From: Antarctobacter albus
GTDB taxonomy: Bacteria > Pseudomonadota > Alphaproteobacteria > Rhodobacterales > Rhodobacteraceae
Direction of reading: 5' to 3'
Assembly: GCF_900101505.1 (NCBI RefSeq)
Contig: NZ_FMZI01000002.1
Location: forward strand, 186,001-250,000
DNA length: 64,000 nt
The notes under the pieces were generated by a model. That model ran no database searches. It saw nothing but the letters and a program-made list of their open reading frames with translations, and was not told where the DNA came from. Of this stretch, positions 12,324 to 17,028 are shown piece by piece (positions within the stretch are counted from its first letter, which is position 1; the number at the start of each line of letters is the position of its first letter). A program made the translations under genes and the position numbers.

Positions 12324-12379
12324 GGCACCAGACCGACCGACAATAGCGGCTGCGGACACGCGGCCCGACTGAAACAAAG

Positions 12380-12407
12380 GCCCGCCCTGCCAGGGGCGGG
12401 CTTTTTT
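12380..12407 (+). terminator. Rho-independent terminator of ectABC-ask
   Basis: A perfect 8-bp stem (GCCCGCCC at 12380-12387 with GGGCGGGC at 12394-12401), a six-base loop and a six-T run. It lies between the ask stop and the convergent cyclooxygenase-like gene. Confidence 0.85.
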
Positions 12408-12429
12408 GCTGGCCGTCGCCGAAGGCGGG

Positions 12430-14562
12430 TTACTCGCCCTGCCAGCCGGGGCGGGTCATGCCGATGAACGCCAGCGTCTCCGGCGCCTCGACGTTGCGCG
12501 CGATGATGTCGCGCAGCGATCCGCAGGCCCCGATCTGTTCCCAGCCGTAGCGGGTGAATGTGGGGTGTTCCATCTCCGGGTCATCGTCGAACCCGGGCGG
12601 CGGTGGAAAGACGTGTTCCGACAACAACGGGTTGGGCAGGGCCTGCGAAAAGGCATCCAGCGCGACGAAGGACAGGATGGTGCGGGGCAGGGGCGATCCG
12701 GGCACCCGGTCTTCGCAGAAGATCCCGGTGAAGAAATCGACCTCGTCGACCGAGCGGTAGGCGCGCGCCAACTGGGCGGCGACCGCGGGATCGCTGCTGA
12801 TCTCGTCGAACGCCTTTGCCGGGGCCTGCCCGAGGTAGCCGCGGTAGCGGTTGTACGGGGCCAGTTCGCAGATCCGTCCCTGTCGGACCGAATCCCACTC
12901 GATGTTCAACAGGGTGTCGTTGGTATTGCGCGGGCCAAGGCGGGCGGCGGGCTGGGCGCTCATGTCCTCGAACCCGCGTTTCAGGCCGGTCTGGATCAGC
13001 GGCAGGTTGTTCATGAAATAGCTGCGGCCTACCGGGTGTTCCGTCCCGCCCCAGGTGATCGCATCGGGGATCAGCGCGTGCCAGCGATAGAGCAGGCTGA
13101 ATTCCGTCGTGATCCAGTTGGCCTTGTTCCAGGGCGCGTGCCAGCAGACCGAGGGATCCGCCATGAGGTGCAGTGCGAAGGGCGCGATATGGTTGATGTA
13201 ATCCTCGACCACGATCTTGATGAACTGCACGACGACCACGTTGCGCGCGGTCTCGAACACGCGGGTGTCGTCCCAGTCCGGGTGCCGGGCGCCGATCTCG
13301 TGCGCCAGGCGGTTGTGTTCGCGCAGGAAAAGCGTGTTCATCATCGACACCTGCGGCACGGAATTGACCCGGTCGCCGCCCACGGCAAACAGCGCGTCGC
13401 GAAAGGCGCGGGCGCCCGCGGCGGTGGCCGGATCGTCCGAGGCGCAGGATTTCAGCAGGTCGGTCAGGCCCAGCGGTGGGTCCAGCCCCTCGAATTCCGG
13501 CCGGATCTCACCGTCGGCAAAGAGGAACTCGGGGAACTCCTCCCCTCCGATCCTCTGAGACCGCAGCATCCCCCGATGGGCATGGTCCGGGTCGGGAACC
13601 CGCAGGAGGCGGGTCTGTTCCGGGGTGCGGCCATAGAGAGGGCAAAGGTCGATTTCATGGTTCGAGGTGTTGCGCTTGCGTCGGTCCGGGTCCGGGGTGT
13701 CGCCGCCGATGCTTTCGGGCACCGTGCGCAGGAAACCGTCGGTCAGGTACTGCGCGAAACTGGGAAAGAGGCAGGTGGATTTCGGGCACAGCACCTGTGT
13801 CCCGTCCGGGCGTTCGAAGAGCGGTTTCAGACCTGCTTCGCCCTTCCATCCCGGCAGGCTGTCCTGGTCGATTTCGCTGACGCCCAGGTGACGGCCCGCC
13901 CAGGTCCTGTCCGTCAGGCTGGACCAGGAGGTATAGGGCGCCATCGTCGAAAAGGGATGTGGACGCGGGCGCGCCTGCATCACGATCCGGTTGATCAGCA
14001 GGGCGTTCAGCTTGCGGTGCAGGAACGGCACCGCCTCGACCAGCCGCGCGACCCAGGGGCGTGTCAGCTGCGACAGGGCCAGTTCCGCGATGCGTGCCAG
14101 CAGGCCGTTGATCCGCGCCGCCAGCCATTCGGACCGTTTCATTCCGGGGTAGAAGGGCAGGAAGACGGCGGAAAAGACGATATGCGGCAGGACGTGGTGC
14201 TGCCAGATGTCCTCGAGAATGAAGATGAACCAATAGCCGACCAGGAAATTCAGCGCCGTGAAGATCCACCAGCCGATGCGCAATTCGCGCCACATCAGCA
14301 CGATGCCGAACACGCCGCCCATGAAGATCGGCCCCAGCGTCCAGCGTTCCCAGTACTCCGGCACCCGGCAGAGCGCGCCAAGGATCGGGGTGCCCGGAAA
14401 CAGCGAAACCCAGGGAGAGGGATAGCCAAAGAGGTTCAGCAGCCCGCGATAGAACATCATCGCCCCCACCAGCAGGCAGGTCAGCTGCAGGAAGGTGCGG
14501 CGCCAGACCGCCCAGTCGATGCGAAATCCCTTGTGCGGTGCCCCCGCCGAGGCCGTGCCCAT
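12430..14562 (-). CDS. Membrane-anchored cyclooxygenase-like heme peroxidase (animal peroxidase superfamily)
   Basis: 710 residues. The first about 140 hold four hydrophobic segments (near 24-45, 74-91, 98-117, 124-138). Residues about 200-640 match the prostaglandin H synthase/fatty-acid dioxygenase group. LYRWHALIPD (491-500) aligns with the COX segment carrying the catalytic tyrosine and proximal heme histidine, giving Tyr492 and His495. REHNRLAHEI-GARHPDW (414-430), VVEDYINHI and VDEVDFFTGI also match. In the distal-heme segment, FAQYLTDGF (269-277), the usual histidine is Asp275. The family oxygenates unsaturated fatty acids through a heme-generated tyrosyl radical. ATG has an AAAGGGG Shine-Dalgarno. 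It is divergent from a diheme cytochrome and a catalase-like gene. Family is clear; substrate is unknown. Confidence 0.85.
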   Translation of the reverse strand: MGTASAGAPHKGFRIDWAVWRRTFLQLTCLLVGAMMFYRGLLNLFGYPSPWVSLFPGTPILGALCRVPEYWERWTLGPIFMGGVFGIVLMWRELRIGWWIFTALNFLVGYWFIFILEDIWQHHVLPHIVFSAVFLPFYPGMKRSEWLAARINGLLARIAELALSQLTRPWVARLVEAVPFLHRKLNALLINRIVMQARPRPHPFSTMAPYTSWSSLTDRTWAGRHLGVSEIDQDSLPGWKGEAGLKPLFERPDGTQVLCPKSTCLFPSFAQYLTDGFLRTVPESIGGDTPDPDRRKRNTSNHEIDLCPLYGRTPEQTRLLRVPDPDHAHRGMLRSQRIGGEEFPEFLFADGEIRPEFEGLDPPLGLTDLLKSCASDDPATAAGARAFRDALFAVGGDRVNSVPQVSMMNTLFLREHNRLAHEIGARHPDWDDTRVFETARNVVVVQFIKIVVEDYINHIAPFALHLMADPSVCWHAPWNKANWITTEFSLLYRWHALIPDAITWGGTEHPVGRSYFMNNLPLIQTGLKRGFEDMSAQPAARLGPRNTNDTLLNIEWDSVRQGRICELAPYNRYRGYLGQAPAKAFDEISSDPAVAAQLARAYRSVDEVDFFTGIFCEDRVPGSPLPRTILSFVALDAFSQALPNPLLSEHVFPPPPGFDDDPEMEHPTFTRYGWEQIGACGSLRDIIARNVEAPETLAFIGMTRPGWQGE

Positions 14563-14656
14563 AGCCGCGCCCCTTTCAATAAGACCTTCATTAATGACGC
14601 CAAGTGTGGCAGCTTTAAGGGGTTATGTTCAAATTTTTTCGCGCCAAAGATGTATC

Positions 14657-16042
14657 ATGAAAAAGCTGCTGCTCATCGTCTTCTTCGTCCTTCTGGGATC
14701 CGCGCTGTTCCTGGAATACAAGCGCCTGACCATAAAACCCTGGCCCGCCACGCATTTCGAGGACGTGGTGGAGCATTTCAAATACGGATCCATAGGGGCC
14801 GAGGTCGACGGCTTTCCCTATGCCATCTGGCGCGAACTGCCCACGATCTTTGCCGGGGAACTCCCGCTGGGGTACGCCGGGTTCGGCTTTCTCGGCGAAG
14901 AGGGCAGGGATCTTCCCATCGGTGTCTCCGTGCGTCGCATCGGGGTTGACCGGGTCGGGTTCAACTGTGCCACCTGCCATGTCTCGACCTACGAAATCGA
15001 CGGCGCGCGGCACCTGGTTCTGGGTGCGCCCAACAACGCGCTGGATATCCAGGCCTATATCCGGTTCCTGACCGGCGCCGCGCAGGACCCCCGGCTGACC
15101 CCCGACGCGGTGATCGAGGCGGCAGAGGCGAACGGGCGGCCGTTGGGCTGGTTTGACAGGCTGGTGCTGCGTCGCGTGGTCTTTCCCCGGCTGGCCGAGG
15201 AGGTCGCGACGCTGGAGTCCCGGCTGGCCTGGATGGACGGCCGTCCGCCGCACGGGCCGGGCCGCACGGATGCGGGCAATTTCTGGCGCGAACGCTGGGG
15301 GTTGAACCCGTCGGGCGACAGCCGTGTCGGGGTGGTCGATTTCCCCTCGGTCTGGAACCAGCGCTTGCGCACCGACGGCTGGTTTCACTGGGATGGCAAC
15401 AACCGGTCCCTGGACGAGCGCAACATCTCGGCGGCGCTGGCCGGAGGCGCGGCGGACTGGCTGCTGGAACGTCGGTCGATCGAGCGGGTCTCGGACTGGC
15501 TGATGGCGTTTCCGTCGCCGGACTGGCCCTTGCCCCTGGACGCGGACCGGGTGGCGCAGGGCCGCGCGATCTACGAGCGTGAGGGCTGCGACACCTGCCA
15601 CGATCCGGGCAGCCCCAGCCTGGGGCAGGTGACCTCCCTTGCGATCCTGGGCACGGATCCTCAGCGCACCGACCTGTTCGATGCGGAAATGGTGAGCTAT
15701 TTCAGCGACGTGGGCGAGAAGTACTCCTGGCGGTTCCACAACTACCGGACCACTGACGGCTACGCCAACATGCCGCTGGACGGGATCTGGATGCGGGCGC
15801 CTTACCTGCACAACGGCTCCGTCCCGACGCTGGCAGACCTGTTGTCGCCGCCAGACACGCGGCCCGTCACCTTCTTTCGCGGATGTACGGTGCTGGACAC
15901 GGACCGGGTCGGCTTCACCTGCGAGACCGGGTTCGAACTGGACACGACACTGACCGGCAACGGCAATGGCGGGCACCTCTGGGGCACGGATTTGCCCGAC
16001 GCGGAAAAGGCGCTGCTGCTCGATTATCTCAAGTCGCTCTGA
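14657..16042 (+). CDS. Membrane-anchored diheme c-type cytochrome, RoxA/MauG-like
   Basis: 461 residues starting MKKLLLIVFFVLLGSALFLEY, an uncleaved signal anchor or signal peptide, so the body is periplasmic. Two heme-c motifs are seen: CATCH at 104-108 and CDTCH at 311-315. A RAPYLHNGSVPTLADLL segment (about 380-395) is typical of the diheme peroxidase/MauG and rubber-oxygenase RoxA superfamily. Such diheme proteins can act as dioxygenases: Pseudomonas oleate 10S-dioxygenase and diol synthase are diheme cytochromes of this broad class. Its stop overlaps the start of the catalase-like gene, so both are translated together. I infer a redox or oxygenase partner of the neighbouring heme enzymes. 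Confidence 0.8.
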   Translation: MKKLLLIVFFVLLGSALFLEYKRLTIKPWPATHFEDVVEHFKYGSIGAEVDGFPYAIWRELPTIFAGELPLGYAGFGFLGEEGRDLPIGVSVRRIGVDRVGFNCATCHVSTYEIDGARHLVLGAPNNALDIQAYIRFLTGAAQDPRLTPDAVIEAAEANGRPLGWFDRLVLRRVVFPRLAEEVATLESRLAWMDGRPPHGPGRTDAGNFWRERWGLNPSGDSRVGVVDFPSVWNQRLRTDGWFHWDGNNRSLDERNISAALAGGAADWLLERRSIERVSDWLMAFPSPDWPLPLDADRVAQGRAIYEREGCDTCHDPGSPSLGQVTSLAILGTDPQRTDLFDAEMVSYFSDVGEKYSWRFHNYRTTDGYANMPLDGIWMRAPYLHNGSVPTLADLLSPPDTRPVTFFRGCTVLDTDRVGFTCETGFELDTTLTGNGNGGHLWGTDLPDAEKALLLDYLKSL

Positions 16043-17028
16043 TGGGGGATGAGCGCATTCCGGCGGGCGAGGCGGCAGAGATCCTGCACCTGACACGCGC
16101 AAATCTGCAGACGCTCTGGCGGCGGGATGACGTGGTGAAACGCGGACAGCATGCCAAGCATCACGCATTGTTGCAGGGCCGGTTCCGGGTGCGGCCGGAC
16201 CTGCCGCCGTCGCTGGCGCAGGGCGTGTTTCAGCCGGGGGCGGACCACGCCTGCCTGGTGCGCTTTTCCAATGGCGGCCAACAGGACGACCGGGCGCGCG
16301 ATGTGCGCGGCATGGCGATCAAGCTGCTGGATATACCGGGCCTGAAACTGCAGCCGGGGCAGGGACATATGTGCGAACAGGACTTCGTTCTGGTCGATCA
16401 CCCGGTCTACTTCTGCAAGGACATGGGGGACTACATGCCCTTCAACCGGCATTTCCTGCCGGTGCAGGCGCTGCGCAGCAAGGGGGGCGGCCCGCTGCGG
16501 CTGTGGCGTGCCTTGCGCGGGCTGACGATGCTGGGGCTCTTTCAACGGCCCGTTCTGCGGGCGGCGCGTGGCTTTGCCGGACGGCGCGTGGGCTCGTTGC
16601 TGGCGCTGACATATCACAGCACCACGCCCTACCGGCTGGGCGACCTGGCAGTAAAATACAAGGTCCAGGGGCAAGGGGCGCCAGCCGATCCGGTGCAGTC
16701 CCCGGACGGGTTGGGCAGGCGGCTCTGGCAGGCGCTGGACGCCGAGGAGGCGCGCATGACTTTTGGCGTGGTGATGCAGGACGATCCCACCCGCCAACCG
16801 GTCGAGGATGCGCGGGTCGACTGGGAAGCTGCCGGTGCGGCCTTCGTGCCCGTGGCCGAGATCGTGTTGCCCCGGCAAGAAGACAGCGCCGACCGGAGCG
16901 CCCGGGCCGAGGCCTTGCGGTTTTCGCCCTGGATGAGCCTGCCCGCGCATCGTCCGCTGGGTGCGATCAACCGTGCGAGGCGCGAGGTCTACCGCGTCAT
17001 GGCAGAGGCGCGCGGGCCACGCGCCTAG
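16042..17028 (+). CDS. Catalase-family heme protein (y4iL / allene-oxide-synthase-like)
   Basis: 328 residues, much shorter than true catalases (about 480 or more). Catalase-fold landmarks are QHAKHHALLQG with the distal histidine at 37, DVRGMAIKLLD, and EQDFVLVDHPVYF. The C-terminus carries FSPWMSLPAHRPLGAINRAR, characteristic of the small catalase-like subgroup represented by rhizobial y4iL. Relatives of this fold convert fatty-acid hydroperoxides (allene oxide synthase, hydroperoxide lyase types) rather than dismutating H2O2. No export signal is apparent. The ATG overlaps the diheme cytochrome stop (TGATG). Hydroperoxide processing downstream of the divergent cyclooxygenase-like enzyme is my inference. 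Confidence 0.75.
   Translation: MGDERIPAGEAAEILHLTRANLQTLWRRDDVVKRGQHAKHHALLQGRFRVRPDLPPSLAQGVFQPGADHACLVRFSNGGQQDDRARDVRGMAIKLLDIPGLKLQPGQGHMCEQDFVLVDHPVYFCKDMGDYMPFNRHFLPVQALRSKGGGPLRLWRALRGLTMLGLFQRPVLRAARGFAGRRVGSLLALTYHSTTPYRLGDLAVKYKVQGQGAPADPVQSPDGLGRRLWQALDAEEARMTFGVVMQDDPTRQPVEDARVDWEAAGAAFVPVAEIVLPRQEDSADRSARAEALRFSPWMSLPAHRPLGAINRARREVYRVMAEARGPRA

Follow-up and report, generated by a model that had tools for sequence, protein, structure and literature searches.

In this report, we describe a locus of three putative heme-protein genes, considered here as a candidate fatty-acid oxygenation module, in a 64,000-nucleotide stretch of the genome of the marine bacterium Antarctobacter albus (NCBI RefSeq assembly GCF_900101505.1, contig NZ_FMZI01000002.1, positions 186,001 to 250,000 of the forward strand), hereafter termed the window. 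The genes encode a cyclooxygenase (COX)-like heme protein (PX), a diheme c-type cytochrome (DH) and a small catalase-fold protein (CAT). The features of the locus are as follows:

12430 to 14562, minus strand: PX, COX-like heme protein placed in the bacterial 10S-dioxygenase (10S-DOX) clade, predicted to be membrane-tethered; 710 aa; PF03098
14143 to 14514, minus strand: PX residues 17-140, predicted four-helix membrane domain, from AlphaFold2 (AF2) secondary structure and alignment
14563 to 14656, no strand assigned: 94-bp gap between the PX and DH start codons, read from the sequence; presumed promoter region
14657 to 16042, plus strand: DH, diheme c-type cytochrome of the RoxA-like / NF040606 family, from profile matches; 461 aa
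16042 to 17028, plus strand: CAT, small catalase-fold protein, from Pfam Catalase, alignments and Foldseek; 328 aa

An original prediction, made from the DNA sequence, had described a COX-like heme peroxidase with Tyr492 and His495, divergent over 94 bases from a diheme cytochrome c with CATCH, CDTCH and LHNGS motifs, whose stop codon overlaps the start of a short catalase-fold protein. All of these elements are present as described; the overlap between the DH stop codon and the CAT start codon is a single shared base. Two features go beyond that description: Asp275 in place of the distal heme His of PX, and a predicted membrane domain of four helices at the PX N-terminus.

The cyclooxygenase-like protein PX

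PX matches PF03098 (An_peroxidase) with 124.6 bits against a cut-off of 25. Its top matches among sequences of the Protein Data Bank are prostaglandin synthases (PGHS-1, E 3.4e-46), with plant alpha-dioxygenase (alpha-DOX) reaching only 2e-8. The structural comparison with COX that the original prediction had proposed bore out the resemblance. An AF2 model built from 40 family rows (pLDDT 89.2, pTM 0.80) returned COX-1 or COX-2 chains in Foldseek rows 1-35, all with a TMt of 0.79-0.84; among the 50 rows shown, the structures that followed were other peroxidases (8s6c, 0.65; 6erc, 0.68), myeloperoxidase (at most 0.62) and alpha-DOX (at most 0.59). A plant-type alpha-dioxygenase was rejected on both fold and sequence.

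PX residues Tyr455, Tyr492 and His495 correspond to COX Tyr348, Tyr385 and His388, and PX also has Gln271; Asp275 replaces the distal His207. The catalytic Tyr, the proximal His (in YxxH) and the distal Asp (in TD[GS]F) are all present in PX. A 60-row alignment was assembled from sequences picked by their likeness to the window PX, near-duplicates included and one row truncated; the distal Asp and the equivalents of Tyr385 and His388 were each found in 59 of its 59 readable rows. Because these rows come from six groups (Alpha-, Beta- and Gammaproteobacteria, Actinomycetota, Acidobacteriota and Cyanobacteriota), the distal Asp does not represent local decay. Classical peroxidase and true cyclooxygenase were both rejected as identities for PX on account of Asp275.

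The same distal site (F143-TDSF) occurs in the linoleate 10S-dioxygenase of Nostoc punctiforme. According to the available portions of a 2026 review (PMC13049297), this enzyme yielded 10S-hydroperoxides from oleic as well as linoleic acid, and the linoleate 10S-hydroperoxide can be transformed by a specific catalase-related hydroperoxide lyase encoded by a separate gene. Two cyanobacterial PX orthologs (loci L210 and L212) have 542 aa, the same length as the Nostoc enzyme B2J5P4, and agree with its published numbering at 8 of 8 positions (F143, Y305, T310, Y342, G469, I483, A487 and Q490). They stand in for B2J5P4 in a 53-row tree that was midpoint-rooted for drawing only. In that tree, the window PX and L210/L212 fall into one 44-row group with a support of 100/100. 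Near-duplicates (L003, L010, L016, L018-L020, L022, L023, L031, L032, L090 and L091) and fragments (L035, L040, L046 and two L213 pieces) were left out. By sequence, then, PX belongs to the clade of the characterised linoleate/oleate 10S-dioxygenase.

The N-terminus of PX (residues 1-140) is a further distinguishing feature. AF2 predicts helices at residues 17-45, 76-91, 95-114 and 120-133, and the domain carries the motif LEDIWQHHVLPH, with histidines H122, H123 and H127. The net charge is +3 before helix 1, 0, 0 and -2 in the loops, and +2 after helix 4, a distribution that mildly favours a cytoplasmic catalytic domain. We compared PX at 48 loci found with peptide patterns from the window PX; the set is biased to close kin, some of its flanks are short, and two of its members, L002 and L003, are not independent, since they seem to be the same-genus genomes G005 and G004. 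PX aligns from residue 22 or earlier at 11 of these loci (L002-L011 and L028), L035 holds a broken membrane-type PX, and the remaining matches start at residue 139 or later, a few partial starts being uncertain.

The histidine motif and DH occur together. LED[IV]WxHHVLPH stands at the start of helix 4 in all seven DH-linked membrane PX (the window, L002, L003, L004, L005, L011 and L245), and the HHxxxH histidines are found in none of the six unbroken membrane-type PX without DH (L006-L010 and L028); L035 was excluded from this comparison. The genomes of those six loci gave no CAT match, and for DH only two weak partial matches (E ~4e-4 and ~6e-4). In the catalytic-domain tree, the DH-less membrane PX group is the sister of the window group, L011 and L245 branch outside both, and PX without a membrane domain lie in between. 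The simplest account that the tree suggests is a single joint loss of the His motif, DH and CAT. Counted on the tree, the co-variation is worth roughly one event, a joint loss (or gain), rather than 13 independent cases, and is suggestive rather than statistical.

The diheme cytochrome and the catalase-fold protein

DH scores 60.8 bits against RoxA-like_Cyt-c, whose cut-off is 26.7, and 169.4 bits against NCBIfam NF040606, whose cut-off is 150; a distant Paracoccus yeei DH falls under the latter cut-off, at 127.3 bits. The protein has an N-terminal hydrophobic stretch, followed by CATCH at 104, CDTCH at 311 and LHNGS at 384, with predicted hemes at C104-H108 and C311-H315. A rubber oxygenase was considered and rejected, since the NCBIfam RoxA, RoxB and RoxC profiles score 48.6, 45.7 and 52.0 bits, far under their cut-offs of 1000, 900 and 900.

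In the available portions of PMC4496055, the 10S-DOX and the 7,10-diol synthase of Pseudomonas aeruginosa are RoxA-related diheme proteins. DH could likewise be a second oxygenase or isomerase, as in that oleate diol synthase pair, with CAT serving only as a safety valve for leaked hydroperoxide. DH does keep the inter-heme Trp (W245, RoxA W302) and the second-heme His (H440, RoxA H641). However, the essential RoxA F317 reads Gly in DH, and at F301 DH has a His (H244), where the Pseudomonas pair (FadCcp type, with a polar heme-pocket pattern that includes F301Q) has Gln, both placed in a weak, 1.8-bit alignment stretch; further, the heme motifs lie 207 residues apart in DH versus 245 and 235 in the pair. 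We view such an oxygenase or isomerase role for DH as possible, though doubtful.

Relatives of DH also occur near lipid-related genes. At L227 (8641-14114), one lies ~2 kb from a full-length homolog of plant-type fatty-acid alpha-dioxygenase (E 1.7e-106 to rice alpha-DOX), and at L086 (4046-10379) an alpha-dioxygenase-like protein, recognised by eye, lies at a similar distance from its DH, in a stretch that also holds a flavin adenine dinucleotide (FAD) protein and an alpha/beta hydrolase. On rhizobial plasmids, DH relatives are near genes annotated as GMC oxidoreductase and patatin-like, one of the latter scoring under the Pfam cut-off. Because of these neighbours, a lipid-oxidation role of the DH family is supported independently of PX. 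On the symbiotic plasmid pNGR234a (L080:6107-13961), a catalase-family gene stands between diheme cytochrome genes and is followed by a patatin-like annotated gene, with no PX within the stretch read.

The catalase fold of CAT is shown weakly: the Pfam Catalase score of 27.4 bits is barely above the cut-off of 25, and the structure model is of low confidence (pLDDT 58.9). With this model, Foldseek placed the 33-kDa catalase-related protein of Mycobacterium avium (3e4y/3e4w) at rank 1, followed by catalases; chanoclavine synthase (9jdc) came 10th and coral allene oxide synthase (1u5u) 38th. His37 and Arg313-x3-Tyr317 are invariant in a 7-row alignment. His37 shares a column with the distal His of catalases, and Arg313-x3-Tyr317 is also found in the cyanobacterial partners. 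Catalases use Arg-x3-Tyr as a heme-ligand motif, and R313-x3-Y317 is its presumed equivalent in CAT, at a point where the alignment fails to overlay the catalase Tyr and the model is below pLDDT 50. A loss of the proximal Tyr, suspected from the C-terminal alignment, was dropped because the R-x3-Y motif is conserved there.

The distal pocket of CAT is its own. Gln36 precedes the distal His where five cyanobacterial partners have Thr-His, and Asp119 occupies the position of an Asn common to those five proteins and four catalases. CAT has neither the Thr-His nor the distal Asn of the cyanobacterial partners, and, because Gln36 and Asp119 set its pocket apart, we do not class it as a 10S-hydroperoxide lyase. 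It is better described as a relative of that enzyme that is likely, by analogy, to act on hydroperoxides, and its product chemistry may differ in keeping with its different distal site. Inspection by eye found no evident signal peptide in CAT.

Another possibility is that PX, a cytochrome c peroxidase-like DH and CAT together destroy hydrogen peroxide and lipid peroxides and make no defined oxylipin. The catalase-type fold of CAT would suit such a peroxide-defence module, as would the KatG-size PF00141 genes found directly 3' of PX at L012:11751-13940 and L013:7967-10156 (at L013 by likeness of the gene start) and 2.3 kb downstream of PX at L025:5812-7998. Yet the whole PX clade is without the distal His of classical peroxidases and has kept the cyclooxygenase Tyr; the relative that shares its distal site is a published fatty-acid dioxygenase (PMC13049297, available portions); and the distal Asn of catalases is Asp in CAT. 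We consider peroxide defence an unlikely function of the locus.

Clustering of the three genes in other genomes

The complete triad is present in the window genome and in five further genomes (L002, L003, L004, L005 and L245), of which L245 belongs to a different alphaproteobacterial family and has the same layout. CAT is clustered with PX at 6 of the 48 loci: in L002-L005, DH is placed between the two; in L038, PX adjoins CAT; and in L015, CAT lies on the other strand, 1.3 kb from PX, with a hydrolase gene in between. A seventh locus, in Ramlibacter sp. WS9 (L011), has PX and DH and, behind them, a decaying CAT remnant (L011:13500-14000) with a broken frame and without approximately residues 49-184. 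A second PX, lacking the membrane domain, lies upstream in the same genome (L011 7352-8962).

Whole-genome searches of the 48 PX genomes gave a DH match in 11, five of them at least 60% identical and all five adjacent to PX, and a CAT match in 15, four of them at least 56% identical and all at PX; the L015 and L038 genomes hold additional PX-linked CATs beyond these four. On plasmids, CAT lies beside PX in at least 7 of 12 PX-bearing records, judged by coordinates (four of Paracoccus yeei, two of Ruegeria and one of Methylobacterium; 6 of the 12 regions were read). A more distantly related DH is also present in the P. yeei records, where the genes run DH-CAT-PX. PX matches, some of them only distant, were obtained in 15 of 292 genomes of Cyanobacteriota. 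CAT is directly downstream in five of the eight cyanobacterial PX loci fetched, including one where PX is split in two; it directly follows PX 3' at both L210 and L212, and neither CAT nor DH was found at the PX locus of L043. The clustering of PX with CAT recurs across three phyla.

The PX clade is rare. Among 385 genomes of the class, 4 match at E<=1e-20: the window genome; G800, with a complete triad (PX 54%, DH 65% and CAT 41% identity); G773, with PX alone within the 13 kb read; and G647, with a weak match. Further, 41 of the 48 PX loci are without DH or CAT in the fetched flanks. A universal three-gene system was rejected on these grounds. The co-occurrence search that the original prediction had called for was in this sense divided in its outcome: it turned up the five further triads, and it also turned up those 41 loci and homologs of CAT and DH away from PX. 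The refuting outcome named by the original prediction, homologs in unrelated contexts, thus holds in part. The standing of DH as the third member is similarly mixed. It is linked to PX in 5 of 5 genomes having a DH of at least 60% identity, it is present in L245, and its relatives lie near an alpha-dioxygenase at two loci; most of the 48 PX loci lack it.

Within the window, the triad is preceded by ectoine biosynthesis genes with their aspartokinase and followed by a LuxR-type response regulator gene that ends against CAT, all named by eye from the open reading frames. Six genomes of the same genus were searched, the window genome among them, and three have a PF03098 match; Mameliella are the nearest named relatives, with a PX identity of 96%. 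The segment that follows the aspartokinase gene (window 12324-17028) differs in G001-G003 of the same genus, which do not have the triad, and is an accessory site. A chance adjacency, or hitch-hiking, of three functionally unrelated genes would sit well with such an accessory, variable site, with the three same-genus genomes without a PF03098 match and with the many PX loci that have neither partner. This explanation is disfavoured because the same genes are found together in other genomes. The triad is intact in another alphaproteobacterial family (L245), it appears in other gene orders in Ramlibacter (with the CAT remnant) and on P. yeei plasmids, and all close homologs of DH and CAT in the 48 PX genomes lie at PX loci. 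We regard chance as very improbable.

PX has other recurrent neighbours. It lies directly beside same-strand cytochrome P450 genes on two rhizobial plasmids (L084:6730-9647 and L085:6697-9599) and in a Solirubrobacterales metagenome-assembled genome (L039:10001-12902). Against Pfam p450, these score 38.7, 20.7 (under the cut-off of 22.8, annotated as a P450) and 24.3 bits, respectively, and the heme motifs GHHECLG and GLHSCFG occur among them. The gene pairs resemble, in unfused form, the fungal fusions of a dioxygenase with a P450 (linoleate diol synthase / PpoA type), and they could bear on the origin of those fusions. HlyD/AcrB, FAD oxidases and regulators also recur near PX, mainly inside groups of related loci.

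Proposed pathway and comparison with known systems

We propose, with a probability of roughly 0.68, that the locus is a fatty-acid oxygenation module in which PX makes a fatty-acid hydroperoxide and CAT and/or DH convert it. PX would be anchored in the inner membrane by its four helices and by COX-type membrane-binding helices, and would take its substrate, an unsaturated acyl chain, out of the bilayer. Formation of a Tyr492 radical and addition of O2 would then yield the hydroperoxide, much as in the Nostoc 10S-dioxygenase, and CAT would transform this product by lyase- or isomerase-type heme chemistry. DH, as an anchored periplasmic diheme protein, might act on the same oxidised lipids from the opposite face of the membrane; or it might exchange electrons with PX, perhaps via the HHxxxH site of the membrane domain. 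That PX dioxygenates fatty acids and that CAT uses the hydroperoxide is suggested by analogy with their relatives. More speculatively, the substrate could be oleate- or vaccenate-like, with a 10/12-hydroperoxide as the product; the topology and the role of DH are matters of similar speculation.

A more elaborate version of this scheme is a trans-membrane oxylipin machine. In it, a cytoplasm-facing PX would be wired through its His-bearing four-helix domain, possibly a heme- or quinone-binding one, to periplasmic DH, which would prime or drain PX or process the hydroperoxide; a CAT of new specificity (Gln-His/Asp) would finish the product on the inner face. We think this version unlikely.

The original prediction is supported in part. 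Its central idea, that a dioxygenase in the membrane supplies hydroperoxide to an enzyme of the catalase fold, is supported: PX falls in the 10S-dioxygenase clade, the published partner in that clade is a catalase-related lyase, and PX and CAT cluster in three phyla. The proposed rearrangement to an allene oxide gained no support. The nearest characterised function is that of a lyase, and the distal site of CAT differs from those of both enzymes. Nor did the suggested role of DH as an electron or oxygenase partner gain support.

Several facts weigh against the proposed module, in addition to the PX loci without partners. The window PX is 35% identical to the Nostoc-type L210/L212, and it differs at two published substrate-site residues (Thr310 is Ala460 and Ile483 is Val633) and keeps two others, A487 (A637) and Q490 (Q640), all assigned from motifs in the translated sequence. 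Identity between CAT and the cyanobacterial partners is 24-27%, and the distal site of CAT has Q-H and D versus T-H and N. All seven fetched regions with distant CAT homologs from PX genomes (L214-L220) are without PX, and the Acidobacteria genome of L038 has two DH homologs (45% and 40%) on a PX-free contig (L221). Among 248 genomes of the window's family, four others have a close PX (51-59%), none of them with a DH or CAT match. The membrane probably separates DH, which is predicted to be periplasmic, from CAT, for which no signal peptide was evident. In Methylobacterium (L088:7968-10329), a CAT homolog adjoins a gene annotated as an epoxide hydrolase, possibly another lipid-oxidation context. 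Finally, the functions of PX, DH and CAT are all predicted from sequence.

The tandem of PX and CAT is an already known kind, from cyanobacteria; the linked RoxA-like DH, the His-bearing four-helix membrane domain and the altered CAT pocket are new here. The Nostoc 10S-dioxygenase and hydroperoxide lyase were reportedly first described in Brash et al. 2014, J Biol Chem 289:13101. No description of a PX-DH-CAT module was found in the literature searched, which included the available portions of PMC4496055, PMC4420034, PMC13049297, PMC9410191, PMC9579011 and PMC11941309, the original 2014 Nostoc report being outside its scope. The same partial sources yielded one characterised bacterial COX-like dioxygenase of the Asp-distal clade. 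Our survey suggests a recurrent pairing of this clade with another heme enzyme possibly handling the hydroperoxide, be it a catalase-fold protein, a P450 or perhaps KatG, and, in one of its branches, the presence of a membrane domain together with a diheme partner. A three-gene clone would make it possible to test the use of a COX-like enzyme in such bacteria, the workings of a cyclooxygenase fold without the distal His, and the function of NF040606 diheme proteins.

In both structure and sequence, the catalytic domain of PX is matched best by mammalian cyclooxygenases. Unlike them, PX has Asp275 for His207 and an extra membrane domain, and endoperoxide formation is without support. The coral allene oxide synthase and hydroperoxide lyase and M. 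avium 3e4y have the small catalase fold in common with CAT, for which Foldseek ranks 3e4y above coral 1u5u; the coral enzymes, however, are fused to a lipoxygenase and do not lie beside a COX-like enzyme. The fungal linoleate diol synthase, like the proposed module, couples a dioxygenase of the peroxidase-cyclooxygenase superfamily with another heme enzyme acting on the hydroperoxide, but there a single chain holds both, the second enzyme being a P450, and the distal residue is His (PMC13049297, available portions). The P. aeruginosa diol synthase pair PA2077/PA2078 resembles the locus in its RoxA-related diheme c-type proteins, its hydroperoxide chemistry and its tandem genes. As far as the available portions of PMC4496055 describe it, both members of that pair are diheme proteins and neither is COX-like or catalase-like, and DH differs from this pair, known here from its description, in heme spacing and, by a weak alignment, in heme-pocket residues.

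The Nostoc punctiforme pair consists of the linoleate 10S-dioxygenase B2J5P4 and a catalase-related 10S-hydroperoxide lyase (PMC13049297, PMC9410191 and PMC9579011, each in its available portions). The present locus differs from it in the four-helix N-terminal membrane domain of PX, in the Gln-His/Asp rather than Thr-His/Asn distal site of CAT, and in the diheme cytochrome gene that lies between the two. Common to both are a small catalase-fold partner gene nearby and a COX-like heme dioxygenase that falls into one clade and has the distal Asp, Tyr385/His388 and DAFxQA.

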